Shown: piece after piece, positions 7,740 to 55,424 of the stretch | Layout of the letters: the number at the start of each line of letters is the position of its first letter | Position numbering within the stretch: position 1 is the stretch's first letter | Virus record (IMG/VR): IMGVR_UViG_3300042987_002196 | Span: 1-55,939 of that record | Strand: one strand, 5' to 3' | Length of the DNA stretch: 55,939 bases | DNA from: a virus | Translations under genes and position numbers: made by a program | Notes under the pieces: generated by a model | What the model was told of the DNA's origin: nothing | The model's database searches: none | The model's input: only the letters and a program-made list of their open reading frames with translations

Positions 7740-8246
7740 CTATCCGAAGTTCGCAAATTCACCGAAGTGGTCGTGGGCGGCCTGGCAATACGCCATGTGG
7801 GCGGCCAGCTCGTCATGAAAGTAGCCGAGATGAGTCGATCTACCGTTGATGCGGATCTGGGCCATCCACTTGCGCTTGCGCTTGTACCAGCTCACGCCTT
7901 TATAGGCAGAAGTGGTACTGCTTCTTTTTCGCTGGTTGCGCACGTTTTCTGCAGCGGTGGCAAGTCGCAAATTGCAAATTCTGTTGTCGCTTGGGTTTCC
8001 GTTGATATGGTCAATTGCTTTCTCGCCTGGATTTTCACCATAAGCAAATAGCCATGCAAGGCGATGGGACTGCATGTTTATCCCGTGCAAGCGAATTTGC
8101 TTATAGCCGCTTCCGTTCGTCCAGCCAGCCTTCTTGCCTGGTTGCATCTTCTTGCCTGAGCACTTTAGCCAGAAGAACTCGCCAGTTTCCGCGTCGTAAC
8201 GCAGCCACTCCCTCAGCTTCGCGAGGTGCGGTAAACTCTTTGCCAT
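7740..8246 (-). CDS. HNH homing endonuclease with AP2 DNA-binding domain
   Basis: A 168-residue protein of the HNH_3-AP2 class of free-standing homing endonucleases found in phages. The N-terminal part (FFWLKCSGKK, SGYKQIRLHG...HRLAWLFAYGE) is the conserved lead-in; the HNH core is IDHINGNPSDNRICNLRLAT (about residues 77-96). The AP2 domain follows (YKGVSWYKRKRKWMAQIRI, then THLGYFHDELAAHMAYCQA, about 112-155). Such enzymes cut DNA and spread themselves and linked sequence between genomes. It is encoded against its neighbours at the left edge of the accessory region, with a repeat-rich non-coding stretch upstream, as expected for a mobile gene. The AP2 part is related to the solo AP2 protein at 47181-47453. 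Confidence 0.9.
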   Translation of the reverse strand: MAKSLPHLAKLREWLRYDAETGEFFWLKCSGKKMQPGKKAGWTNGSGYKQIRLHGINMQSHRLAWLFAYGENPGEKAIDHINGNPSDNRICNLRLATAAENVRNQRKRSSTTSAYKGVSWYKRKRKWMAQIRINGRSTHLGYFHDELAAHMAYCQAAHDHFGEFANFG

Positions 8247-8323
8247 CAGCCTGGGTTTGCGGGTTGATCACGCCTCGGGAGTTTGCGGCTCGCCGGGGCA
8301 CAAAAATCCTACCGCAGGCCATC

Positions 8324-8447
8324 GAAAAACTTAGGGACCCGGGCACTCGAGGCTTAATAGGAGTGTGTTTTGAAGCTCCTGGCCGTTCAAAAAAATTAGG
8401 GACCCGGGGGGCAAAGGTTTAATAGGGGGTGTTTTTGACCCTCCTGT
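8324..8447. repeat. two imperfect direct repeats, each with a hairpin
   Basis: Two copies of an about 57-nt unit lie at 8324-8380 and 8389-8447. Shared blocks are an A-run, TTAGGGACCCGGG, TTTAATAGG or CTTAATAGG, and a hairpin. In the first copy AGGAG pairs with CTCCT; in the second AGGGGGT pairs with ACCCTCCT around GTTTTTG. They sit just upstream of the HNH-AP2 gene and could be transcription signals or remnants of an insertion boundary. The stretch 8247-8928 holds no gene that I can support; it is repeats and GC-rich leader. Confidence 0.6.
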
Positions 8448-8465
8448 TTTCGTGTTTTGGCTGAA

Positions 8466-8480
8466 AATGAGAATCATTCT
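8466..8480. promoter_or_regulatory. Fur-box-like palindrome
   Basis: AATGAGAATCATTCT is a 7-1-7-type palindrome matching the form of ferric-uptake-regulator boxes (core TGAGAAT-n-ATTCTCA). A second copy is at 8674-8688 and a denser group lies at 12073-12234, so the motif flanks the GC-rich cassette on both sides. Whether it binds host Fur or a phage protein is unknown. Confidence 0.45.
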
Positions 8481-8520
8481 GAATAGGGCCAATGTCAGCG
8501 ATTCCACACACACACACGAC

Positions 8521-8661
8521 TAGTACATCCGTTCGCTAATACATTTGTACTACCCGTATTTGTAGTACATTTGTACTACTTAAAGAGTACATTTGTACGC
8601 TAGTACATTTGTACTATTGTCATTTGCAGTACATTTGTACGCTAGTACATTTGTACTATTA
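8521..8661. repeat. iteron array of AGTACATTTGTACT palindromes
   Basis: Five full or nearly full copies and one lead copy of AGTAC-ATTT-GTACT occur at 8540-8552 (partial), 8563-8578, 8586-8600, 8601-8616, 8629-8642 and 8643-8658; a partial TAGTACATCC starts the array at 8521. The last four form two direct copies of a 33-bp unit (8586-8618 and 8629-8661), each holding one GTACGCTA-type and one GTACTATT-type site. Regular short palindromes in an AT-richer island are typical of iterons bound by a replication initiator or of clustered operators. Confidence 0.85.
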
Positions 8662-8673
8662 AGCCCGGCCGAG

Positions 8674-8688
8674 AATGAGAATCATTCC
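8674..8688. promoter_or_regulatory. Fur-box-like palindrome (second left copy)
   Basis: AATGAGAATCATTCC lies between the iteron array and the first cassette gene, set between GGCC-rich flanks (GGCCG before, ACGGCC after). It is the same element as at 8466 and at 12073-12234. The position, about 240 nt upstream of the cassette's first ATG, allows a role in its transcription. Confidence 0.45.
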
Positions 8689-8928
8689 CACGGCCAGGCC
8701 GGCAGGATCCCCCCACCCGACGCGCCGCGGTTTCGATCGGCGCTCTCCTTATGTATGGGGCGGCCAGGCCGACCCATTGCCTAGGTGCGTCCGCACAGTC
8801 GCAAGGAGCGCCGCGCCAGTGGCAACTAGGCCAATTGGCAAACTGACCCCACGCCCTCGCATCCGGGCCGGCCAGGGGGCATCATTCCCGCAGGCGCCAT
8901 CGCGCCATCCCATCGCGCCTAACACCAA

Positions 8929-9270
8929 ATGACCCTTACAATCACCCGGGCGCCCGCGCCCGCCTTCCCTCCCATTGATGATGCGATCGCCGCCCTTAGC
9001 GCGATCGATTGGCAAGCGGCCGCCGCCCGCGCCCTCGCCCTCGCCCTGACCGTTGCCGCGGTCTGCCACGCCCTCGCTGTTCGCCTGGCCCCGATCGTGG
9101 CCGCCGCCCTACGCGCCCTCGCCGATCGGATCGACCGGCCCGCGCCCATCGCGCCCGCCGCCCGCCTGACCGTGGCCGAACTGCGCGCCGCCGCCCGCGC
9201 CGCCGGTCTGCCGCGCCGCCTTTATATGTACGGCCGCCGGGCCGAGCTCCTGGCCGCCCTCGCCGTGTGA
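8929..9270 (+). CDS. Ala-rich cassette protein 1, possible SAP-like C-terminus
   Basis: A 113-residue, strikingly Ala/Arg-rich protein, the first gene of the GC-rich cassette. Residues about 25-60 are long Ala/Leu stretches that could be one hydrophobic helix, possibly a membrane segment. The C-terminal 35 residues (LTVAELRAAARAAGLP...YGRRAELLAAL) resemble a SAP-type helix-loop-helix DNA-binding motif. The ATG is preceded directly by the cassette leader CATCGCGCCTAACACC (8911-8926) and not by a Shine-Dalgarno sequence. A HIP1 octamer (GCGATCGC) lies at 8983-8990 within the gene. Codon use (GCC and CGC dominate) differs from the head and tail genes. Function unknown; reality of the gene rests on the leader and frame-specific composition. 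Confidence 0.6.
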   Translation: MTLTITRAPAPAFPPIDDAIAALSAIDWQAAAARALALALTVAAVCHALAVRLAPIVAAALRALADRIDRPAPIAPAARLTVAELRAAARAAGLPRRLYMYGRRAELLAALAV

Positions 9271-9298
9271 CGGTCGACAATCCGCACGCCCGCCCCTT

Positions 9299-9322
9299 GA
9301 TGGCGCCCCGTGAGGCGCCATC
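9299..9322. promoter_or_regulatory. perfect 9-bp hairpin in cassette intergenic leader
   Basis: GATGGCGCC (9299-9307) pairs perfectly with GGCGCCATC (9314-9322) around a 6-nt loop. No T-run follows, so it is not a standard terminator. It is followed by ATTCCATC and a near-palindrome ACGGCCGAACGGTCGT (9332-9347), then the cassette leader before 9366. A similar but shorter GGCGCC/ATCATTCC arrangement precedes the first cassette gene (8879-8900). Confidence 0.6.
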
Positions 9323-9365
9323 ATTCCATCAACGGCCGAACGGTCGTTCCATCGCATCTAACACC

Positions 9366-9608
9366 ATGCCTGCCCCTTCCTTCCGCATCGAAACGTTCCG
9401 TGGCACGGCCGCCGGATGGGCGCCCGCCTCGCCCGCCGCTGTCAGTGCTGATACGGCCGCCCGTCGGCTCCGCCTGTATCAGGCCGTACGCGGCGACGCC
9501 CGCCTGTATCGGGTCGCGCCCGTGATCCTGCCGGGCGAATCTGCCGCCGCTGTCGCCGCCCTGCCGCGCCCCGTTGTCACCGGCGCCGCCCTTCCGGCGA
9601 TCGCCTGA
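9366..9608 (+). CDS. cassette protein 2, hypothetical
   Basis: An 80-residue Ala/Arg/Pro-rich protein preceded directly by the leader ATCGCATCTAACACC (9351-9365) and by the hairpin at 9299-9322. The N-terminus reads as a short beta strand (SFRIETFRGTAAGW), the centre as a helix (AARRLRLYQAVRG), and the C-terminus as an Ala/Pro-rich tail. A HIP1 octamer covers the stop codon region (9597-9604). I recognise no domain. In the same place another frame is also open because of the GC content; this frame is chosen for the leader and ATG. Confidence 0.5.
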   Translation: MPAPSFRIETFRGTAAGWAPASPAAVSADTAARRLRLYQAVRGDARLYRVAPVILPGESAAAVAALPRPVVTGAALPAIA

Positions 9609-9633
9609 CCCTTCCCCATCGCATCTATCACCC

Positions 9634-9864
9634 ATGGCACGTATCACGCCCAATCAGCTCCACAAGGCCGCCGAGCGGGTCAGTTGCGCCCTCTACGGCG
9701 ACAGCCGCCCTAGCGAAATCTTCTGCCAACGTTCGGCCACCGGTTGGCACGTCATGCGCCGGTTCGGCGCCGGAGCTCAGCCGCTCGGCGAATGCTTAAC
9801 GCCCGGCGAGGCTCAGCAGTTGCTGAGCGGTCTGGCCATCGGCGCCGCCCTCGTTCGGTCATGA
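9634..9864 (+). CDS. cassette protein 3, hypothetical
   Basis: A 76-residue protein with less biased composition than its cassette neighbours, which makes it a convincing gene. It starts at the ATG right after the leader CCCATCGCATCTATCACCC (9615-9633). Segments ITPNQLHKAAERV, GWHVMRRFGAGAQPLGECL and TPGEAQQLLSGLAIGAAL suggest a small alpha/beta fold. It looks like the short single-domain proteins found on cyanobacterial plasmids and phages, but I cannot name the family. Its stop overlaps the next start (ATGA at 9861), the only gene in the cassette that lacks the leader. Confidence 0.6.
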   Translation: MARITPNQLHKAAERVSCALYGDSRPSEIFCQRSATGWHVMRRFGAGAQPLGECLTPGEAQQLLSGLAIGAALVRS

Positions 9865-10037
9865 CCCGCCCCGATCGCGCCCCGTGGCGCCAGTTACCGG
9901 CGGGCATGGTTGCCTCGTCCGATCCGGCCATGGCCGATCAGCTCGCCGCGATTCTCGCCGCCTACGCCGCCCGCGTCGCCGCCGGCCACCACGCCGCGCC
10001 ATCGCCTGATCGTTGGGCGATCAGCGACCGCGACTGA
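9861..10037 (+). CDS. cassette protein 4, small hypothetical
   Basis: A 58-residue protein translated by overlap with the preceding gene (ATGA at 9861-9864) instead of having its own leader. It is predicted to be mainly one Ala-rich helix (AMADQLAAILAAYAARVAAG) between basic, Trp-containing ends. No motif recognised. A longer in-frame version from 9744 exists, but its extra part is a frame-shadow of cassette protein 3. Confidence 0.5.
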   Translation: MTRPDRAPWRQLPAGMVASSDPAMADQLAAILAAYAARVAAGHHAAPSPDRWAISDRD

Positions 10038-10067
10038 TCGCCCGCCCATCCCATCGTACCTAGCACC

Positions 10068-10631
10068 ATGCCTACTGTTCAGACCTGCCGCGTCGCCACC
10101 AAGATGGGCGACGCTATGGCGCCCGCCCATTGGGTGGGCCAATGGGTCGCCCTGACCCCGCCCTGTGATTCCGCCCGCCATTTCCCGGTTTGCCGCGGCC
10201 AATGGGTGATCACCCATAGGGCATCAGGCCTTAGCGCCGGGACTCTTCGCTGCAGCAAGCGGCGGGCCGCTGAGATCGCCCGCCAATGGGATCACCGGTT
10301 CGCGCTGATCGATCCTGCCGACGCCCGCGCCTGGCCGTTCGCCCGCCAATGGGCCGATCTGGTTGCGTCGATTAATGCACCATGGCGCGATCCGGCGCCC
10401 GCCGCCAATGATTCCACCGAGACCGCTTGTGAGCTCGCCGCCCGCGCCGGTCTGCCGATCGATCAGGCCGGCGGCGCCCGCCGGATCTGGTGGCGCGGCA
10501 AATTCTGGCCGCCCCCCACCAACGGCGAGCTCGAGCTCTGGACTCTGGACAGCTGCTGCGAGACGCCCGACGGCCGAACTGTTGAGCCGGACGCGCCCGA
10601 TTCTTGGCTGTCGATTCTCCGCCTGATCTGA
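10068..10631 (+). CDS. cassette protein 5, hypothetical
   Basis: A 187-residue protein with the leader CCCATCGTACCTAGCACC (10050-10067) directly before its ATG. The first 110 residues are rich in Trp, His and Cys (WVGQWVALTPPCD, HFPVCRGQWVITH, LRCSKRRAAEIARQWD), suggesting a small globular, possibly metal-binding or beta-barrel domain. The second half (WWRGKFWPPPTNGELELWTLDSCC) may be another small beta domain. Composition is close to a normal protein, which supports reality. I do not recognise the family. It ends 19 nt before the next cassette gene. Confidence 0.65.
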   Translation: MPTVQTCRVATKMGDAMAPAHWVGQWVALTPPCDSARHFPVCRGQWVITHRASGLSAGTLRCSKRRAAEIARQWDHRFALIDPADARAWPFARQWADLVASINAPWRDPAPAANDSTETACELAARAGLPIDQAGGARRIWWRGKFWPPPTNGELELWTLDSCCETPDGRTVEPDAPDSWLSILRLI

Positions 10632-10650
10632 TCACCCCGCACCTAACACC

Positions 10651-11718
10651 ATGCCCGCCGCTCTGATCCGCTCAAACGCCCGCGTTGCCCTGCCCGCCGA
10701 CGTGGCCGCCCATCTCGCTCGGTTCGGCCTGACCCTGGCCGACGTGCTGACAGACTCGAACCAGAAGCTAGGCAAAGGCGCCGAGATCGCCCGCGCCGTC
10801 ATTCACCACGGATTGCCGGGCCGCGCCCTCGCCGCCGCGATCGATCCCGCGAACCGGTCGACCGTGGCGCCCCGCGGCCATCTCGCCGCCCTCGCCGCCC
10901 TCGCCGATCGCGAGGGTATGACGGCCGCCGCGTCGGTGTTCAATGCCTGCCCGTGGGCTACGGAAGGTTGCGCGTCGGCCTGTCTAGCGTGGGCCGGCCA
11001 CGGCGGATTGTCGCCCGCGGTCGCCGCCGCCCGTGGCCGCCGGACTCTGGCAATGATCGCCGACCCCGCCCTCTACGGCCGGGCGATCCTATGGGCGATC
11101 GCCCGCCAATGGTCCCGCGCCCAGGCCGACGGTCTGCCCCTGGCCGTTCGGCTCCGTGGCACGGATGATCAGCCATGGCACGTTCGGCGGTTAAATGTCG
11201 ATCTGCCGGAGGCGATCGCGATCCGTCGCCGGTTCGGTCTGCTGATCGCGAACGGCGAGGGCCGGACTCTGGCCGAGCTGCTGTCGCCGGCCACGGCCGA
11301 CGGATCGATTCGCCTATATGAATACAGCAAAGCGCCGGTCGACGGGCCGCTCGGTCTGATCGCGCAACGGGCCGCCGGCTGGGATATCACCGCCAGCCTG
11401 GCCGGCGATCGCCCGACGGCCGCCGCCGACGCGATGGCCGCCGCCCTCGCCGGCTTCCGTCTCGCCGTGCCGATCGATCTACCTAAGGGCGCCCCGATCC
11501 CGGCCCGCGTGCTGATCAGCCATGGCGGCCAGACCGCCGCCCTGCGGGCGATCGATGGCGACGCCACCGACCACCGGTGGGCGGATCCTGCGCCCGTGGC
11601 TGTGATCCTGAGGGCGAAGCGATCCCGCGGCGCTGATCCGAACCTGGCCGGATTCATCCTGCCCAACGCGCCGCTAGTCCGCCTGCCCGACGGAATCATT
11701 CAGCTGATGCCCGCGTGA
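10651..11718 (+). CDS. gp88-like Cys-motif protein of the GC-rich cassette
   Basis: A 355-residue protein, the largest of the cassette. Residues about 90-130 carry a block resembling the 'gene product 88' family of actinobacteriophages and related phage proteins: FNACPWATEGCASACLAWAG, then an AAARGRRTLAMI helix and a D-P-x-LYG segment. A downstream strand VRLRGTDDQPW and the YEYSKAP motif (near 225) correspond to later conserved blocks of that family. The biochemical role of gp88-like proteins is not established; the three cysteines suggest a metal or Fe-S site. The leader CCGCACCTAACACC ends at the base before the ATG. Three HIP1 octamers occur inside the gene (11095, 11212, 11405). Two terminators follow at 11743 and 11783, ending the cassette. 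Family match moderate, function unknown. Confidence 0.7.
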   Translation: MPAALIRSNARVALPADVAAHLARFGLTLADVLTDSNQKLGKGAEIARAVIHHGLPGRALAAAIDPANRSTVAPRGHLAALAALADREGMTAAASVFNACPWATEGCASACLAWAGHGGLSPAVAAARGRRTLAMIADPALYGRAILWAIARQWSRAQADGLPLAVRLRGTDDQPWHVRRLNVDLPEAIAIRRRFGLLIANGEGRTLAELLSPATADGSIRLYEYSKAPVDGPLGLIAQRAAGWDITASLAGDRPTAAADAMAAALAGFRLAVPIDLPKGAPIPARVLISHGGQTAALRAIDGDATDHRWADPAPVAVILRAKRSRGADPNLAGFILPNAPLVRLPDGIIQLMPA

Positions 11719-11742
11719 TCCGTTCCGGCGATCGATCGACCG

Positions 11743-11767
11743 GCCCGCCAGTTCGGCGGGCTTTTTA
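11743..11767 (+). terminator. Rho-independent terminator of the cassette
   Basis: GCCCGCC (11743-11749) pairs with GGCGGGC (11755-11761) around AGTTC and is followed by TTTTTA. It lies 25 nt after the gp88-like gene and closes the plus-strand cassette unit. Confidence 0.85.
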
Positions 11768-11782
11768 GTTTGCATAAAGAAA

Positions 11783-11800
11783 GGGGGGCAATTGCCCCCC
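11783..11800. terminator. bidirectional terminator, perfect 18-bp palindrome
   Basis: GGGGGGCAATTGCCCCCC is a perfect palindrome. On the minus strand it follows the stop codon of the 49-residue gene by 3 nt and is followed by TTTCTTT, so it should end that transcript; on the plus strand TATTTAG follows. It separates the convergent cassette and small-gene transcripts. Confidence 0.75.
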
Positions 11801-11803
11801 TAT

Positions 11804-11953
11804 TTAGTATTCAGTTTCGAGATCGATTGCTTCGATCTCTTTAATTAATGCTCGCGTCCGTTTGAGTAACTCTTGCGTCCGACGGTTCGACTCTTCATCG
11901 ATGCGGCGCAGTTCTTCTAATCGAGCTGCGAACATATCAGCGATTGATTGCAT
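11804..11953 (-). CDS. 49-residue coiled-coil protein
   Basis: A small gene on the minus strand. It encodes 49 residues, almost all one charged amphipathic helix (ARLEELRRIDEESNRRTQEL, then KRTRALIKEIEAIDLETEY), so probably a coiled-coil oligomer. Codon use is AT-rich and unlike the GC-rich cassette beside it. Evidence for reality: a TATAAT box at 12003-11998, a perfect 8+8 palindrome at the expected transcript start (11974-11991), ATG at 11953, TAA at 11804 and a perfect terminator immediately after. An own promoter, own operator and own terminator around a 49-codon gene suggest a regulator or an antisense-strand accessory protein. No family recognised. Confidence 0.65.
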   Translation of the reverse strand: MQSIADMFAARLEELRRIDEESNRRTQELLKRTRALIKEIEAIDLETEY

Positions 11954-11973
11954 AAATTAAAGTGCAACGAAAA

Positions 11974-12003
11974 GTGAGCAGAACTGCTCACACTATAATT
12001 ATA
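11974..12003 (-). promoter_or_regulatory. promoter with overlapping operator palindrome for the 49-residue gene
   Basis: On the minus strand, TATAAT occupies 12003-11998. Seven to twenty-four bases downstream is the palindrome GTGAGCAGAACTGCTCAC (11974-11991; arms GTGAGCAG/CTGCTCAC). A repressor bound there would cover the transcript start. No good -35 hexamer is seen at the right spacing. The box is itself palindromic (TATAATTATA), so a plus-strand promoter towards the terminase genes is also possible. A further inverted repeat GAGTAG/CTACTC is at 12047-12065. Confidence 0.6.
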
Positions 12004-12072
12004 GCAAATACTGGCGCGATCGGGCGAGATTGTAACAATTCTTAATGAGTAGTTCCGTACTACTCTCGGGTA

Positions 12073-12234
12073 AGAATGATTCTCATTCTCGCGGCCCCGC
12101 CGTTTAATGAGAATGATTCTCATTCTCCTGGCCATGGGTATTGAGAATGATTCTCATTCTCGCGGCCCCGGCTTATTGATTCTCAATTGCAAGTGTTATT
12201 GATTCTCAATGGGTCCCTGCAAATGATTCTCAGC
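12073..12234. repeat. array of Fur-box-like palindromes
   Basis: Three strong copies of GAATGATTCTCATTCTC occur at 12073-12090, 12106-12127 and 12141-12160; the first and third also share the following GCGGCCCCG. Weaker half-type copies (TTATTGATTCTCAAT, TTATTGATTCTCAAT, AAATGATTCTCAG) follow at about 12173-12187, 12198-12212 and 12221-12233. The strong copies have the TGAGAAT-n-ATTCTCA form typical of Fur boxes. The array lies between the cassette and the terminase genes, with sister copies on the other side of the cassette. Confidence 0.8.
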
Positions 12235-12430
12235 GGGGGTGAATTCGAATCTCGTTATTGATCTAGGCATCGGCCGCGCAACTTGGTTTGAGTCCAGCCT
12301 GTCTCACGCAAAGACCCCCCTTTCCCCGCCAACGAGGCAACCGACCAGACTACCCTCCAGGACAGCGTTTTGGGGAGAGTGTCAACCAAGACTGTAAACC
12401 TGTAACATCGGTTCACATCAACGGCATCCC
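12235..12430. other. candidate cos region upstream of terminase
   Basis: About 190 nt without a gene precede the small terminase gene. In lambda-like phages with gpA-type terminase the cos site lies exactly here. The stretch holds a C-rich run (GACCCCCCTTTCCCCGCC, about 12312-12330) and a G-rich GTTTTGGGGAGAG (12366-12379). I cannot point to the nicking site, so this is a positional inference. Confidence 0.3.
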
Positions 12431-12967
12431 GTGCCGCTCATCACCAAGTCAGAGGCGGCCGACGCGCTGGGCGTGTCCCGCACGGCGGTCTACAAGGCGA
12501 TCAAGCAGGGCCGGCTCCCGGTCGTGCGGACCTCTGATGGCAAGGAGCTGATCAAGTCCGAGACGCTGCGCGAGGACTGGTTCGCCAACACCATGGCCAA
12601 GATCGGCGTTGGCCCCAAGCCGCCGATGGGCGAGACCGCCTTTCCTCCAGAGCGACCCAAGCGAGACCGATCACTCACCGAGCCCGAACCCGGTGACATT
12701 GTCCCCGACTACAACGAAAGCCGAGCCCGCACCGAGTACCTCAAGGCCGAGCTGCTTGAGCTGGAGCGCAAGGAGAAGGAAGGGCTGCTGGTGCGGGCGG
12801 CCGAGGTCGAGGCGAAGTGGGTCGAGGTAATCACGATCAGCCGCACCAAGGTGCTCGGCATCGCCAGCAAGGCGAAGCAGCGGATCCCCGATCTCACCCA
12901 AGATCAGATCGCGATCTTGGAAGACATCGTGCGCGAGGCGCTCGAGGAGCTGGCGAGCGATGGCTGA
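12431..12967 (+). CDS. terminase small subunit, Nu1-like
   Basis: A 178-residue protein that recognises packaging sites in phage DNA and recruits the large subunit. The N-terminus is a helix-turn-helix of the lambda gpNu1/excisionase type (ITKSEAADALGVSRTAVYKAI, residues about 3-24), followed by a flexible Pro-rich linker and a long charged helix (TEYLKAELLELERKEKEG) that would serve oligomerisation. The start is a GTG at 12431, with no clear Shine-Dalgarno. An upstream ATG would lie outside the conserved HTH. The TGA overlaps the start of the large-subunit gene by 8 nt. The position directly before a gpA-family terminase makes the assignment solid. Confidence 0.85.
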   Translation: MPLITKSEAADALGVSRTAVYKAIKQGRLPVVRTSDGKELIKSETLREDWFANTMAKIGVGPKPPMGETAFPPERPKRDRSLTEPEPGDIVPDYNESRARTEYLKAELLELERKEKEGLLVRAAEVEAKWVEVITISRTKVLGIASKAKQRIPDLTQDQIAILEDIVREALEELASDG

Positions 12968-14813
12968 CATCAGCGACATCGCGAAGGCCGCGCTGCAGGC
13001 GTGGAAGCCACCGGAGAAACTGACGCTGAGCGAGTGGGCAGACCGGTATTTCTACCTATCGGCGGAGTCGAGCGCTGAGGCCGGCCGCTGGCACACGCTG
13101 CCCTACCAGAAGGGCATCATGAACGCGATCACGGATCCAGCGATCGAGCAGATCTCGGTGATGAAGAGCGCTCGAGTGGGATACACCAAGTGCCTCAACG
13201 CCTGCATCGCGTTCCACATCCACCAGGATCCGTGCCCGATGATGCTGGTGCAGCCGACGATCGAGGACGCCCAGGGCTACTCGAAAGAGGAGATCGCGCC
13301 GATGCTGCGCGACGTGCCGGTGCTCAAGGGATTGGTGAGCGACAGCAAGGCCAAGGACGGCGCCAACACGATCCTGCAGAAGCAGTATCCGGGCGGCACT
13401 CTCGGCCTGGTGGGTGCTAACTCGCCGCGGGGCTTCCGTCGTGTGAGCCGCCGGATTGTGATGTTCGACGAGACCGACGGCTACCCACCGAGTGCTGGCC
13501 CCGAGGGCGACCAGATCAAGCTCGGTATCCGACGGACGGAGTATTACTGGAACCGCAAGATCGTGGCTGGGTCGACGCCGACCCTCAAGGACGCGAGTCG
13601 GATCGAGCGGCTGTTCAGCCAGGGCGACCAGCGGCGGTATTTCGTGCCCTGCCCCGATTGCGGACACATGCAATACCTGAAGTGGGCAAACATGCGCTGG
13701 GACGATCAGCTGTCGCCAGTGAATTACGTGTGCGAGAGCTGCGGCGTCCTGATCCCGCATTCAAAGAAGCGCTGGATGGTGGAGCGCGGCCAGTGGCGGG
13801 CGACAGCACCGGGCAACGGCAAGCACGCGAGCTTCCACATCTGGGCGGCCTACAGCTACTCACCGAACGCCAGCTGGGACAACCTGCGCGATGAATTCCT
13901 CGAGGCGAAGTCTGACCCTGAAGCGCTGAAGACGTTCGTCAACACGGTGCTTGGCGAGAGCTGGGAGGACGATTATGCGGCGAAGGTGGGCGCCGACAGC
14001 CTGCTGGAGCGTGCGGAGTTCTACGAGAGCCAGATGGTGCCGGCCGAGGCATCAGCGGTGACGATCGGATGCGACGTGCAGGACAACAGGCTGAGCCTGT
14101 CGATCTGGGCATGGGGCCGCGAAGAAGAAGGCTGGCTGATCGATCGCCAGGTGATTCACGGCGACCCGAGCCGGCCGGAGCCGTGGAAGCAGCTGGATGA
14201 GATTTTGCTGAAGCCGTTCAAGCATGCGCTGGGCGCCGAGATCAGGCCGGACGTTGTCTGCATCGACTCTGGCGGCCACCACACAATGGAGGTGTACCAA
14301 TACGCGAGGGAGCGCCAGAACATGGGCGTGATCGCGATCAAGGGTCAGAGCCAGAAGGGCAAGCCACCGATCGGCAAGCCAGCGAAGGTGGATCTGAACC
14401 ACAAGGGCAAGGCGCTGAAGAAAGGCGCTGAGGTGTATCCGGTCGGATCTGACACGGTGAAGAGCCTGCTGTTTGGCCGGTTGAAGCACAACGAGCCTGG
14501 GCCGGGCTACCTGCACTTCTATGCAGAAGCCGGGAAGGAGTATTTCGAGGAACTGACTGCAGAAAAGCAGATCACAAGGTTCGTGCGGGGCTACCCCGAA
14601 AGGGTATGGGTAAAGAAATCAAGCCAGCGCAATGAAGCGTTAGACGAACTGGTTTATGCGTACGCAGGATTAAATCGGCTGTACCAGCGGTACGACCGAA
14701 GAACAATCTGGGATCAGCTGGAGAAACGGCTCGAAAAGCCCGTAGAAAGGGAGCGAAAGGCCCCGCTAAGATCGAACAAGGCTCCAAAACGGAGTTTTGT
14801 CCGCCAGTGGTGA
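12960..14813 (+). CDS. terminase large subunit, lambda gpA family
   Basis: A 617-residue packaging ATPase-nuclease of the GpA family. The N-terminal ATPase domain shows a variant Walker A (SARVGYTK, about residues 69-76) and Walker B IVMFDETDGY (about 164-173). A CPDCGH...CESCG zinc-binding pair lies at about 231-260. The C-terminal RNase-H-like nuclease domain begins at IGCDVQDNRLSLSIWAW (about 369) and contains VVCIDSGGHHT (about 428-438). Length is typical of the family (about 600-650). GpA terminases cut at cos sites, which fits a circularly assembled cos-type phage. The ATG overlaps the small-subunit stop. The end of the gene contains a CTCC-AAAAC-GGAG hairpin with TTTTG (14782-14799) and a TAAGAT box at 14767, perhaps signals for the next gene. 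Confidence 0.95.
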   Translation: MADISDIAKAALQAWKPPEKLTLSEWADRYFYLSAESSAEAGRWHTLPYQKGIMNAITDPAIEQISVMKSARVGYTKCLNACIAFHIHQDPCPMMLVQPTIEDAQGYSKEEIAPMLRDVPVLKGLVSDSKAKDGANTILQKQYPGGTLGLVGANSPRGFRRVSRRIVMFDETDGYPPSAGPEGDQIKLGIRRTEYYWNRKIVAGSTPTLKDASRIERLFSQGDQRRYFVPCPDCGHMQYLKWANMRWDDQLSPVNYVCESCGVLIPHSKKRWMVERGQWRATAPGNGKHASFHIWAAYSYSPNASWDNLRDEFLEAKSDPEALKTFVNTVLGESWEDDYAAKVGADSLLERAEFYESQMVPAEASAVTIGCDVQDNRLSLSIWAWGREEEGWLIDRQVIHGDPSRPEPWKQLDEILLKPFKHALGAEIRPDVVCIDSGGHHTMEVYQYARERQNMGVIAIKGQSQKGKPPIGKPAKVDLNHKGKALKKGAEVYPVGSDTVKSLLFGRLKHNEPGPGYLHFYAEAGKEYFEELTAEKQITRFVRGYPERVWVKKSSQRNEALDELVYAYAGLNRLYQRYDRRTIWDQLEKRLEKPVERERKAPLRSNKAPKRSFVRQW

Positions 14814-29200: not shown

Positions 29201-30089
29201 GGCAAACAAAGGCAACACGCAAGAAGCGATCAACGCCAAGACGCAGGTAGACGCCTACAGCCAAGGTATCGCCGCGCTGAATCCTCAGCTTGAAGAATTC
29301 AAGAATCGCACCGACGCAGCCACTGCGGCTCAAATCGCGTTCAGCGACGCCATGCGTTTCCGCCAAGACATGAACATCGGCGCCGGCATCCGCGAGGGTG
29401 CCCAGCAGTACGTCGACTCGATCGGCACAATGCGCGAGGCCACAGCCCAGCTGGCGCAGACCGGCATCAAGGGTGTCGAGGATGCTCTGGTGAGCCTGGT
29501 GACCACCGGCACTGCCAACTTCCGCGAGTTCGCGGCTTCGATCCTCAAGGACACGGCGCGGATGATCATTCAGCAGCTCGTCCTGCGCACGATTATGCAG
29601 GTGATCGGGGCGATTGGGGGTGGTGTTGGCGGTGGCGGGTTTAGCGGCTTCTCGGGCGCTGGCCCGGTGTCTGGCGCGTCGGTGTTCAGCAGTGGGCAGG
29701 CCGGGTTTAATCCGGGAGCCTTTTCCATGCCCAGCCTGCTTTCGGCCCAGGGCAACGTTTTCGACACCAAAGGCGTCGTGCCTTACGCAATGGGCGGCAT
29801 CGTCACCCGCCCCACCCTCTTCAAGTTCGCTAACGGCGGCTACATGAACACCGGCCTGATGGGCGAAGCCGGCCCCGAGGCGATCATCCCGCTGCGCCGT
29901 GGTCGTGATGGCAAGCTGGGCGTGGCTGGCGGCGGTGGCGCCACGAATGTGACCGTGAACGTGGACGCCAAAGGCACCAGTGTGCAGGGCAACAGCGGTC
30001 AGGGCGAGCAACTGGGTCGTGCAATCTCGCAGGCGGTGCAGGCAGAATTGGTCAGACAGAAACGGCCTGGCGGCCTGCTGGCGGCATAA
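26274..30089 (+). CDS. tape measure protein with embedded NlpC/P60-like peptidase domain
   Basis: A 1271-residue tail tape measure protein, which sets tail length and acts at DNA entry. The N-terminal 120 residues are a coiled coil, followed by the tape-measure domain near 125-340 (QAGAVAASG-like Gly-rich hydrophobic stretch, QEAIQGFTGLAAAVIGAGGK, GQLGERLPGAVTLFAEATGR). Residues about 755-845 hold an NlpC/P60-type domain: MCAESVKAFYKSLG (catalytic Cys), KLQPGDIVATG, HVGVYTGGDSVFHQS (His), which could cut cell-wall peptides. The C-terminus is lambda-gpH-like: FREFAASILKDTARMIIQQL and FANGGYMNTGLMGEAGPEAI. At roughly 3 residues per 4.5 Å this predicts a tail near 190 nm. The gene is followed 3 nt later by the gpM gene. 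Confidence 0.93.
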   Translation: MANETIRARIEVLLKGMDQVESLKNAVRQLQTTASPAAADLQKLKNAALQLGGAADRSENDLRRSINALKDVRAQLSITDAEYRKLTGTINKYQAQLDKATGAQQRGGKALQFAQTAGAVAASGVFGGPEGLIGAGIGAFFGPQGALAGGAIGAQVSIVRQQIAAMADQAAQFQRLQIALKGVTQSSREYEAAMGVINNATRSFNVTKQEAIQGFTGLAAAVIGAGGKVRDAELVFNGVSSAIRATGGSAEDVQGALVAMAQVFSKGKATAEEIQGQLGERLPGAVTLFAEATGRTGAELAKAFEQGTVGLNDVMKFAIALGDKYAETNEKIASSSEASGERLKVAFATLREEFGRTFQPLGSAIQDMTASLAEAASQMLLTARNSEELNAALGEATKNSTSAAKALEEFKKTGTTGVDGGIGDAILQWFSGTTELETQLRNTDTQLQASITRFYEAEGAVAAHRKALLASGQSLEEQGKAISAAQGALIIFEGRLRTLALQNKNNTKEAEFYRAKVAELKGVLDSVKGTYKAKIEIQQIFSGNAPGAGPNAGKSIPDGYRKIAGKLAYQVPGVGWVDARTGQPIFKSGSGGDRGQSTFQNPDSKDGSGESEAKKAAAAAKRDADERQRTEESLAKARIALDDAVHRNAMELIRKRYEYEQELINKQRDNWVKSQTGAARTTAGIVAQFLGELDQMQGRMVQAQQQLADSTQKLKSTQAMAVTTVGGGVMSGPGFSAAQLQAAAQEASRFTGIANMCAESVKAFYKSLGISLPGVTAWADTVRKAGQVMTDWSKLQPGDIVATGRPGDTPHVGVYTGGDSVFHQSRSRGLAVGNYPDLGYFKSGGYFVRPSAGGGVGAAGRRDIAAEGSANIAEQDLATANQLLNLYNEQLSKLTPEAVKGFVLNLTDDLRQQNAALKDSAAITALRNRLQLEGVRPEIIDSEVKKAEAVQQNSQSLATLQTLLDAAKAKLQELEAANKGNTQEAINAKTQVDAYSQGIAALNPQLEEFKNRTDAATAAQIAFSDAMRFRQDMNIGAGIREGAQQYVDSIGTMREATAQLAQTGIKGVEDALVSLVTTGTANFREFAASILKDTARMIIQQLVLRTIMQVIGAIGGGVGGGGFSGFSGAGPVSGASVFSSGQAGFNPGAFSMPSLLSAQGNVFDTKGVVPYAMGGIVTRPTLFKFANGGYMNTGLMGEAGPEAIIPLRRGRDGKLGVAGGGGATNVTVNVDAKGTSVQGNSGQGEQLGRAISQAVQAELVRQKRPGGLLAA

Positions 30090-49018: not shown

Positions 49019-49107
49019 CAGGGAAGGATTTTCTTGCAGAGACAGATGGCCGCGATGCAGAGCAGCCAGTAGCCGCAGGCTAGGAAGATGGCGGTTTCGA
49101 GGGTCAC
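49018..49107 (-). CDS. 29-residue membrane peptide
   Basis: A very small gene with GTG start at 49107 overlapping the TGA of the upstream gene (GTGA at 49104-49107) and a TGA that abuts the next ATG. The product (TLETAIFLACGYWLLCIAAI followed by CLCKKILP) is a single hydrophobic membrane helix with a basic C-terminal end. Coupling at both ends supports it as a real gene. Function unknown; may affect host membrane. Confidence 0.5.
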   Translation of the reverse strand: MTLETAIFLACGYWLLCIAAICLCKKILP

Positions 49108-49493
49108 GCCTCCACCTCCGGCGCCACCAACATCTGCCGGATCCTGGCCGCTGTGAACGACCCGCGGGCAATGCGGTTCCAGATCACGCGCATCGCAGCC
49201 ACAGCCTCCTGGTCAGCCATGCAACTGCCGCATTCATCCAGCGCTTTGGTCACGGCCTGGTGGGTCTCGCGGTACAGCTCAGGGTCAGGCTGCATCAGCG
49301 CATCACGCCACTCGGCAACCTCGCCGAGCGACTGAACGCCGAAGTTCTTGAGCTTCATCAGATCGGCCGTCGTGGCCAACATGATCTGCTCAGCAGTGAA
49401 GTAGCCGCCCTGCAGCAGGGCGTTGATGGTGCGGGTGCGCATGTAGCGCAGTGTTTCCGGGATCAGCCGGAAATCATCTTCAGTCGGGTGCAT
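49104..49493 (-). CDS. RNA-polymerase alpha-CTD-like helix-hairpin-helix protein
   Basis: A 129-residue protein. Residues about 18-55 (RTRTINALLQGGYFTAEQIM, then TADLMKLKNFGVQSLGEV) match the C-terminal domain of the RNA polymerase alpha subunit: S/T-x-R-x2-N-x-L, a middle helix and the LLKLRNFGKKSL-type end with its helix-hairpin-helix. The rest is helical (ELYRETHQAVTKALDECGSC, AVAAMRVIWNRIARGSF, RIRQMLVAPEV). In cells alpha-CTD binds UP-element DNA and activators. A free copy in a phage early operon could redirect host transcription, but the fold is also used in plain DNA-binding proteins. The start MHPTEDD at 49493 is chosen because upstream residues are frame-shadow. Confidence 0.75.
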   Translation of the reverse strand: MHPTEDDFRLIPETLRYMRTRTINALLQGGYFTAEQIMLATTADLMKLKNFGVQSLGEVAEWRDALMQPDPELYRETHQAVTKALDECGSCMADQEAVAAMRVIWNRIARGSFTAARIRQMLVAPEVEA

Positions 49494-53635: not shown

Positions 53636-53850
53636 TTCTCTGGTCGTGGGGTATTGGGGAAGCCGCGCATGTTGCGCTGCTCGAATTGAACGATTTCGTG
53701 GATTGGATAGAGCACTCGACCGCCGGCTTTGAACCAGCGCGGACCACGTTGCTGAGATCGCCAGTTGTCTAGCGTGCTCAGGCTGACGACATTACGCCAG
53801 CGCTCAGCCAGCTCACGTGGGGTCAAGTACGTCTCACCAGACTGAATCAT
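53632..53850 (-). CDS. excisionase-like helix-turn-helix protein
   Basis: A 72-residue MerR/excisionase-type HTH protein: YLTPRELAERWRNVVSLSTL (HTH), DNWRSQQRGPRWFKAGGRVL, YPIHEIVQFE. The pattern 'tPRELAERW...ST...NW...G...P.F.K.G.rv.Y...ei..fe' is the classic HTH_17 fold used by Xis and by small phage regulators. With an integrase and attP in the genome, it is the best candidate excisionase, though it lies 7.5 kb away. It overlaps the RecT gene by 17 nt. Confidence 0.8.
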   Translation of the reverse strand: MIQSGETYLTPRELAERWRNVVSLSTLDNWRSQQRGPRWFKAGGRVLYPIHEIVQFEQRNMRGFPNTPRPEK

Positions 53851-54499
53851 CCGTTGCCTCTTGTGGTTCAGTTTCTTGCTGAATTTTTTTGTTCAGGTCA
53901 TTCACGATGGTGGTTTGCTCTGTTACCTGCACCTCTTCAATATCAACGACTTCCTCCTGCGTCTTCATCCCAACCAAGAACTCCGGCACGTAAAGACGGC
54001 CCCAGAAGGCAGCTGCTCTGTACCTGCACATCAAGTCCGGCATCGTTTGCCATTTTGAGCCAGACTTCGTCGCCCATCCTTCGCGCTTCGCCATTGCCAT
54101 GGTCACAACCGGACCCTTCAGCTCCTTGCCGGTGGCAAGCTCTGTGGCATAGGCAAAACAACTGAGACTGTCCCCTTCGCCGCTGACGTTGTAGTCCAAC
54201 GGCGAGAACCTCCCGCACCCATTGATCATCGCGATGATGAACTGCGACGACCAGCTAGGGCGTCCATGGATGATGTGAAGGTTCTGCATCACCTGCAAGG
54301 GGCTGAGTCCCATGCGGCCAGCGATCTCCATCGCCACCAACGTGTTGGCCAGGCCCTGTTGTCCTTGGTATTCCTTGGGCACCAGCGCTGATGAAGAAAG
54401 CGCCTTGCCTATTCTCTGGGCATTTTCAAATTGTTGAATCCCAGTGAACACACCGTCACTCGGCTGGGTTACGACCAGCGCATTTTTTTCGTTTGTCAT
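53834..54499 (-). CDS. recT: RecT-family single-strand annealing protein
   Basis: A 221-residue annealing recombinase of the RecT type. Conserved parts: LVPKEYQGQQGLANTLVAME, AGRMGLSPLQVMQNLHIIHG, RPSWSSQFIIAMINGCGRFS, and WQTMPDLMCRYRAAAFWGRL with VPEFLVGMKTQEEVVD. It binds single strands and anneals homologous DNA. It is coupled to the RecE-like exonuclease gene by a shared base (stop and start at 54499), which is the normal RecET pairing, with SSB close by. The C-terminal 40 residues are a charged, variable tail. Confidence 0.9.
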   Translation of the reverse strand: MTNEKNALVVTQPSDGVFTGIQQFENAQRIGKALSSSALVPKEYQGQQGLANTLVAMEIAGRMGLSPLQVMQNLHIIHGRPSWSSQFIIAMINGCGRFSPLDYNVSGEGDSLSCFAYATELATGKELKGPVVTMAMAKREGWATKSGSKWQTMPDLMCRYRAAAFWGRLYVPEFLVGMKTQEEVVDIEEVQVTEQTTIVNDLNKKIQQETEPQEATDDSVW

Positions 54500-55374
54500 T
54501 AGAAACCTTCGATTTCAGTGATGGAGTCAGACTGATCTTCTTGAAGCCAGTCGGGAACTACTAGCGACTGTATTTCGTCGCCGTAGCCCGGCCACTTGTT
54601 TTCTTCCTTGCATGCGGCAAGGAGTCGCAGGTCTTGTAATGCATCCCGTGAACCACGTTCGAGCAGTTCTGGTGGCGTTGCGTACACCGCGACGCAGTAA
54701 GGCGGTTTCTTTTCGACTGCGATGAACAGAAACTCTTCTGCGCCAATGCCTTGACTGTAAAACGCTGCCTGCACGTGGTAGCGATACTTGATTACCGAAC
54801 GAATGAAGCTGCGAGGACTTGCGTCATCTGTCGTTTTGACATCGGCAATTAACTTTCGGTTATCGCTGTGCCAGTCCGGCCGGCACTTGCAGGCAACACC
54901 AGTAGTCTCGTCAGTCCAAAAGTAAGACTGCTCGCATTTACCAGGCAGTCGCAGGATCGTGCTGGCTGCGGGGTGGCGATGCACCGCCTTAGCCATCGCC
55001 TCGATCTGGGCAGCATCCTCGGACTTGAGCACCGTCTTGCCCTCGGCCTCGGCCTCGAAATCCGCCCACCGCAGCTTGCCCTCCTTGGTGCGGCGATCGA
55101 TGCCCTCCGGCGCGACCACGTATTCGTCGTCGAATAGATGCGGCTCCAGCACCCGTGCATGCAGCGCCGAACCGATCACCATCGCAGCAGTCGGTGGCTC
55201 AACGATCCGGTTCGGATTGAGGTAGCGGTTCCAGTAGTGCAGCGGCGAACGCCGGATCAGATCCAGCCCGCTTTTCGAGATCTCGGGTCTCGCGTGGTAC
55301 TCCGCGTTGGTCAGCCCCATAGGCTTAACTTGCGTCTGTGGACAAAAGCTTACCGCTGTTTCCCGCACCTTCAT
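54499..55374 (-). CDS. RecE-like PD-(D/E)xK exonuclease
   Basis: A 291-residue nuclease of the exodeoxyribonuclease VIII/PDDEXK family that resects double-stranded DNA ends for RecT. Conserved start EYHARPEISKSGLDLIRRSP and HYWNRYL, then VIGSALHARVLEP, and the catalytic CKCRPDW...LIADVKTTDD strand pair (D...D-x-K). The YRYHVQAAFYSQGI helix near the C-terminus is also typical. The ATG at 55374 is taken because AAGGAG lies just upstream; starts at 55404 (GTG) or 55320 (ATG before GLTNAEYH) are possible, and the GTG lies inside a long dyad. First gene of the minus-strand early operon. A TTGACC/GATAAA pair (55475-55470 and 55453-55448) could be its promoter. Confidence 0.88.
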   Translation of the reverse strand: MKVRETAVSFCPQTQVKPMGLTNAEYHARPEISKSGLDLIRRSPLHYWNRYLNPNRIVEPPTAAMVIGSALHARVLEPHLFDDEYVVAPEGIDRRTKEGKLRWADFEAEAEGKTVLKSEDAAQIEAMAKAVHRHPAASTILRLPGKCEQSYFWTDETTGVACKCRPDWHSDNRKLIADVKTTDDASPRSFIRSVIKYRYHVQAAFYSQGIGAEEFLFIAVEKKPPYCVAVYATPPELLERGSRDALQDLRLLAACKEENKWPGYGDEIQSLVVPDWLQEDQSDSITEIEGF

Positions 55375-55395
55375 CGCTCCTTGTCGCATTTCTTC

Positions 55396-55424
55396 GCACT
55401 TCACGGGAATTCCCGACTAAGTGC
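55396..55424. promoter_or_regulatory. large operator-like dyad between divergent early operons
   Basis: A perfect 12-bp palindrome CGGGAATTCCCG (55404-55415) is nested inside an outer inverted repeat GCACTT (55396-55401) and AAGTGC (55419-55424). It lies between the divergent starts of the RecE-like operon (minus) and the helicase gene (plus, 55479), the natural place for a switch controlling both. In RNA it would also form a strong hairpin, but no T-run follows. Confidence 0.75.

Follow-up and report, generated by a model that had tools for sequence, protein, structure and literature searches.

Five of the six genes in one cassette of a viral genome begin 0-2 nt after variants of the same sequence, CATCGCAYCTANCACC, and we consider this element quite probably a leader for translation initiation independent of Shine-Dalgarno (SD) pairing. 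The genome is a 55.9-kb contig, IMG/VR virus record IMGVR_UViG_3300042987_002196, analyzed over positions 1-55,939 (hereafter, the window). The phage's other genes, unlike those of the cassette, use SD. How translation starts in picocyanobacteria and their phages is little understood, and an SD sequence is missing from many of their genes. A phage with SD sequences at most structural and replication genes and one repeated SD-free leader at an accessory cassette offers a clean natural comparison, and its leaders are ready-made sequences for tests of SD-free initiation.

The cassette and its leaders

The window encodes structural and lysis proteins (terminase, portal, capsid, tail tube, lysozyme), as well as a tyrosine integrase, SSB, ThyX and an RNA polymerase alpha C-terminal-domain-like protein. 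The host is likely a freshwater picocyanobacterium, because the best named relative of the terminase (TerL) is that of Synechococcus phage S-LBS1 (45%). The match to the RNA polymerase alpha C-terminal domain (E 7e-7) lies in a 129-aa protein (49104-49493, - strand), a possible transcription takeover factor. Within the window, Rfam gave 0 matches at gathering score and a tRNA search found nothing.

The cassette consists of six genes spanning 8929-11718, with ~70% GC:

8929..9270, + strand: p1, 113 aa; weak C-terminal SAP-like match (E 0.009, below cut-off)
9366..9608, + strand: p2, 80 aa; homologues in the relatives G015, G029 and G008 behind other leaders
9634..9864, + strand: p3, 76 aa
9861..10037, + strand: p4, 58 aa; start overlaps p3 (ATGA), without leader
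10068..10631, + strand: p5, 187 aa; close relatives only in this phage family
10651..11718, + strand: p6, 355 aa; GP88 family (PF17338, phrog_1617)
11742..11767, + strand: intrinsic-terminator-like hairpin and T run, closing the cassette

Most gaps between cassette genes measure 19-30 nt, which fits a single operon, and p4 is probably translationally coupled to p3. GP88 at p6 was the sole family above cut-off among the six genes: we found nothing else in Pfam, only phrog_1617 (annotated as of unknown function) in PHROGs, searched with all cassette proteins except p4, and nothing in NCBIfam or PADLOC. We found no GP88 gene on plasmids, and in bacterial genomes one short contig with the gene, which is probably stray phage DNA.

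The copies of the leader are as follows:

8911..8926, + strand: copy 1, CATCGCGCCTAACACC, 2 nt before ATG 8929
9350..9365, + strand: copy 2, CATCGCATCTAACACC, adjoining ATG 9366
9617..9633, + strand: copy 3, CATCGCATCTATCACCC, adjoining ATG 9634
10052..10067, + strand: copy 4, CATCGTACCTAGCACC, adjoining ATG 10068
10635..10650, + strand: copy 5, ACCCCGCACCTAACACC region, ending CACC, before ATG 10651

A preliminary description, made from the letters alone, had placed the same element directly before these five ATGs and had named the gene at 9861, which overlaps its predecessor, as the only one lacking it. All five sequences were located where it had put them, at 8911-8926, 9351-9365, 9617-9633, 10052-10067 and 10637-10650, and the exception at 9861 was confirmed by the ATGA overlap. 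The claimed distance of 0-2 nt from the ATG was borne out as well: the motif ends 2 nt away in copy 1, one more C separates it from the ATG in copy 3, and copies 2, 4 and 5 show no gap. Searching the window for ATCGCACCTAACACC with up to three mismatches, we obtained six matches. Five were the leader sites (1-2 mismatches, all on the + strand), and the sixth lay outside the cassette at 29600 on the - strand, with three mismatches; no other place in the window has the element at that quality, in line with the earlier claim that none is seen at the phage's other genes. Shuffled sequence contained 1.09 matches on average and 3 at most, and six were reached in 0 of 100 shuffles.

Leaders across related phages

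We collected relatives of graded distance by GP88 and TerL searches; relatives within one lineage are non-independent samples, and gene starts were assigned by us from the sequence. Two of them, L002 (G001) and L004 (G003), with GP88 at 93% and 92%, have the same leader as the window before five genes each. Copy 5 is the most diverged; L002 has the identical variant ahead of its p6 counterpart, and L004 has it there with two changes. L004 also retains the leader at p3, where the start codon is GTG, an observation that supports the p3 start as assigned.

Behind this common leader, the three phages have three different second genes, p2 in the window and a 57-aa and a 69-aa gene in the two relatives, and BLAST homology stops no more than 3 nt from its ATG in both pairs, a break that can be seen in the sequences themselves. 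The window also encodes what may be a recombination pair for which short homologies suffice, one member of which is a weak RecT-like match:

53834..55404, - strand: RecT-like annealing protein (weak, below cut-off) and exonuclease-VIII-like/DUF3799 nuclease

These observations, together with a leader type that follows the genome and not the gene, would fit a leader that is mainly short homology for gene exchange by RecT and exonuclease, any effect on translation being secondary. We regard this as unlikely. A pure boundary would need neither the 0-2 nt register to the ATG nor the low G content and openness found in every lineage. A junction also occurs at p4 (in G001), though p4 has no leader and starts inside p3. 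Finally, orthologous leaders (p1, p6) keep small differences of their own, so that homogenization appears slow.

In more distant relatives, homologous genes follow other leaders, again repeated within each phage (e.g., CCTTTACCRCTTACCTGCC and CTTTATCCTTTCCTGCC). The leader CTTTATCCTTTCCTGCC precedes three genes in G017, and CCCATCGCATCCATTCC precedes two in G004. G015 and L184 share CCTTTACCRCTTACCTGCC, with greater divergence in the first of the G015 copies; L184 has this leader additionally at a gene starting at 11352 that is not part of the cassette. Leaders are mixed in G002, and those of G008, G016 and G018 are pyrimidine-rich with weak repetition; in G002, G008 and G018, repetition is weak or absent. 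The GP88 gene of G018 has a true SD (AAAGGAGG), breaking the leader rule. Across all lineages the leaders are G-poor, pyrimidine-rich and adjoin the start codon. The motif first described is therefore one lineage-specific version within a wider leader family, which in relatives is also seen ahead of a few non-cassette genes.

Leaders resemble one another by phage and not by gene. The mean leader score was 12.7 for non-homologous genes of one phage, 6.4 for homologous genes across lineages and 6.6 for unrelated pairs, the p-values of these scores being only indicative because pairs are not independent. Label permutation over seven phages reached the observed similarity in 0 of 5000 trials. Similarity was restricted to positions -24 to -1, with flanking segments at background. 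Since relatives use different leaders of their own, the leader belongs to the virus rather than to the gene behind it.

Every leader is poor in G and rich in C, in a region of ~70% GC, and one might suppose that C-rich, G-poor gaps in a GC-rich strand are alike by chance. This is scarcely credible: the similarity within a phage was matched by 0 of 500 composition-keeping shuffles in the window, G001, G003, G004, G017 and G015, and it stops at -24 and at the ATG. On the shuffles and these sharp boundaries we rejected chance and composition.

Two wider searches were made. Exact-pattern searches of IMG/VR (30, 7, 41 and 48 stretches) showed how far the motif has spread: outside the phage family the exact pattern occurred at chance-like levels, multi-copy contigs were relatives only, and one new relative, L184, was gained. 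Within IMG/VR, the outcome of the check set by the preliminary description, whether the motif is common before random ORFs, thus favored the element. Among the fetched loci, a scan for at least three ORF starts sharing an 11-mer returned only this family, a few AAAGGAGGTG phages and AT-rich cases. The AAAGGAGGTG phages are of the SD type, and from this outcome the leaders seem to stand in for a ribosome site.

A set of distant GP88 phages (L006-L017, L022, L023, L026, L030 and L031) was set aside, since their GP88 has a fused or added N-terminal part, Q-rich or of another kind, and their leaders do not allow comparison. In L007, L012 and L030, a long N-terminal extension precedes the GP88 domain, and a CAGCAG-rich stretch lies immediately ahead of the domain.

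Probable initiation without Shine-Dalgarno pairing

The preliminary description had noted the lack of a purine-rich ribosome site at the five genes, and our calculations agree. The duplex energy with the 16S tail ranged from -1.1 to +1.9 kcal/mol at the five leaders versus a median of -7.0 kcal/mol at the 27 other window genes. In positions -20 to -1, the leaders had 1-2 G versus 3-11 at those 27 genes (p 0.0002), and 12-15 pyrimidines versus a mean of 9.3 at the other window genes. The predicted energy for opening positions -18 to +10 had a median of 4.5 kcal/mol over 40 cassette starts from 11 phages. It was 11.6 kcal/mol with the leader swapped for coding sequence, 16.5 kcal/mol at 31 internal ATGs of the window's cassette, and 13.3 kcal/mol at other gene starts of the window. 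For a message of 70% GC, an SD-free start would call for just such a low predicted opening cost.

Three functions had been suggested for the element: a promoter -10 region giving near-leaderless mRNAs, a translation enhancer, and a site controlling all cassette genes together. The evidence favors the second. The first, in which each gene would have its own leaderless or near-leaderless mRNA, is very improbable. CTAACA, CTAGCA and CTATCA do resemble a weak TA box, and in G017 a TATCCT at -14 could give a leaderless start. In the window, however, the TA lies only 6-7 nt before the ATG (-7/-6), so that transcription would start inside the gene. TANNNT, expected some 7-12 nt before the ATG of a leaderless mRNA, is absent from the five leaders and from those of G004, G015, G002 and G029, and G017 alone among the relatives has it in register at all leaders. 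A consensus scan of 8200-12450 found no sigma-70-type promoter, and gaps of 19-30 nt fit one operon rather than a promoter per gene.

An SD-independent leader for translation initiation could work as follows. The cassette would be transcribed as one GC-rich (~70%) message, in which every gene that does not overlap its predecessor is preceded by a ~20-nt G-poor, pyrimidine-rich stretch. Such a stretch would be unable to fold with its surroundings, leaving the start codon open for direct binding of the 30S subunit, plausibly through ribosomal protein S1, as in SD-less cyanobacterial mRNAs. Besides its use by ribosomes, the leader would be a constant docking site for genes that are swapped in behind it, and short-homology recombination at the leader, by the phage RecT and exonuclease, may keep it uniform within a genome.

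Published work offers several points of reference. Initiation at cyanobacterial rbcS depends on S1 but does not require SD (Mutsuda and Sugiura 2006, as cited in PMC6847405 and PMC5607370). The region upstream of SD-independent cyanobacterial genes is less strongly structured (PMC6847405), and Prochlorococcus has abundant pyrimidine-rich tracts ahead of its gene starts (PMC5607370). The cyanophages that have been studied to date use SD (PMC6847405). As far as rbcS is described in those two citing papers, the leaders resemble it in the pyrimidine-rich, predicted-unstructured upstream region, the lack of SD pairing and the probable cyanobacterial host. In contrast, rbcS is there a host gene without an operon-wide repeat, and here one sequence precedes almost every cassette gene.

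Openness alone would allow any G-poor sequence, and the sameness of leaders in one genome must have an additional reason: the short leader may serve for recombination, or some factor may recognize its exact sequence. That genes change behind an unvarying leader tends to favor recombination as the putative cause. More tentatively, it is possible that each lineage has a private SD-free start code, with a ~20-nt leader before early or accessory genes that is replaced as a set and is either read by a phage- or host-specific factor or kept uniform by recombination. Were this true, and the leader kept by recombination, any gene dropped behind it would be expressed at once, as in an expression cassette; such a plug-in layout, with a constant leader and genes changing up to the ATG, would explain how small added genes work at once.

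Known repeat systems and the flanking sequences

The known systems that come closest are the Start Associated Sequences (SAS) found in Cluster K mycobacteriophages (PMC3203893) and a similar motif that Cluster EF Microbacterium phages carry (PMC7302621), for which a role in translation initiation is proposed but unproven. Like the leaders, SAS copies are short, asymmetric, gene-oriented and numerous in a genome, and take the position of a ribosome site before unrelated gene families, mainly of non-structural genes, as here. However, the Cluster K sequence, GGGATAGGAGCCC, contains an AGGAG SD core and lies 3-7 bp from the start, and the leaders have neither feature; the Cluster EF motif also has a purine-rich, SD-type core, unlike the leaders. 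Ours are C/U-rich and SD-free, adjoin the start codon and have no sequence relation to SAS. Moreover, SAS is uniform over Cluster K, whereas the leaders differ between lineages while the genes stay homologous. From the likeness in position and copy number, the missing SD core and the differences between lineages, we infer that the element is an SD-free, lineage-specific variant of start-associated sequences.

Two other repeat types bear a looser resemblance. Cluster A stoperators, as summarized in PMC3203893 and PMC4351075, are asymmetric 13-bp sites, oriented with transcription and present in many copies; in those accounts they act in transcription and are not bound to start codons, whereas the leaders always lie 0-2 nt from the start. 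The 17-bp repeats of Cluster O mycobacteriophages (PMC4351075) are likewise intergenic, with gene gain and loss between copies, but they are palindromic, occur also inside genes and are not start-bound.

Upstream of the cassette lies a further repeat:

8522..8660, no strand assigned: array of GTACATTTGTAC palindromes, kept in most relatives although the leaders differ

The palindromes form a candidate operator or promoter control region with repressor or activator sites, and those at 8565-8656 are better operator candidates than the leaders. They bear on the third suggestion, that of a shared control site. A classical DNA operator is made unlikely by the constant distance of 0-2 nt to the ATG and by leaders whose sequence differs from relative to relative. 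What is left of it is a site in mRNA or DNA for a phage or host regulator that switches the whole cassette, the differences between phages being changes of specificity. One sequence before unrelated genes of a phage and another in the next phage would agree with this, and a similar idea has been discussed for SAS/ESAS (PMC3203893). We nevertheless think it improbable: our analysis identified no candidate regulator gene; the search for antisense leader copies in the window gave only two matches with 4 mismatches in 16, taken as chance; and one site would be enough for a coregulated operon, which the palindromes upstream already offer.

The palindromes also occur in L004 (3925-4040), L176 (2438-2500) and L184 (12624-12820). 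Fur-box-like inverted repeats of the TGAGAATGATTCTCA type lie on both sides of the cassette (8463-8690 and 12070-12240) and in L002, L004 and L184. Many related contigs end near them, probably where assembly broke at the repeats. Just upstream of the cassette, at 7740-8246 on the - strand, is an HNH endonuclease with an AP2 domain, of the homing-endonuclease type. Imperfect 60-nt direct repeats (AGGGACCCGGG...TTTAATAGG) at 8322-8446 are possible iterons or an origin; related repeats (GGGACTTGC...GGTCGGTTTA) were found in L005 (4460-4610) and L184 (12400-12500). Directly before its cassette, at 12850-13090, L184 has tandem units of ~27 nt (ATCACTCAGGTGCGCGCACGGTGAGC).
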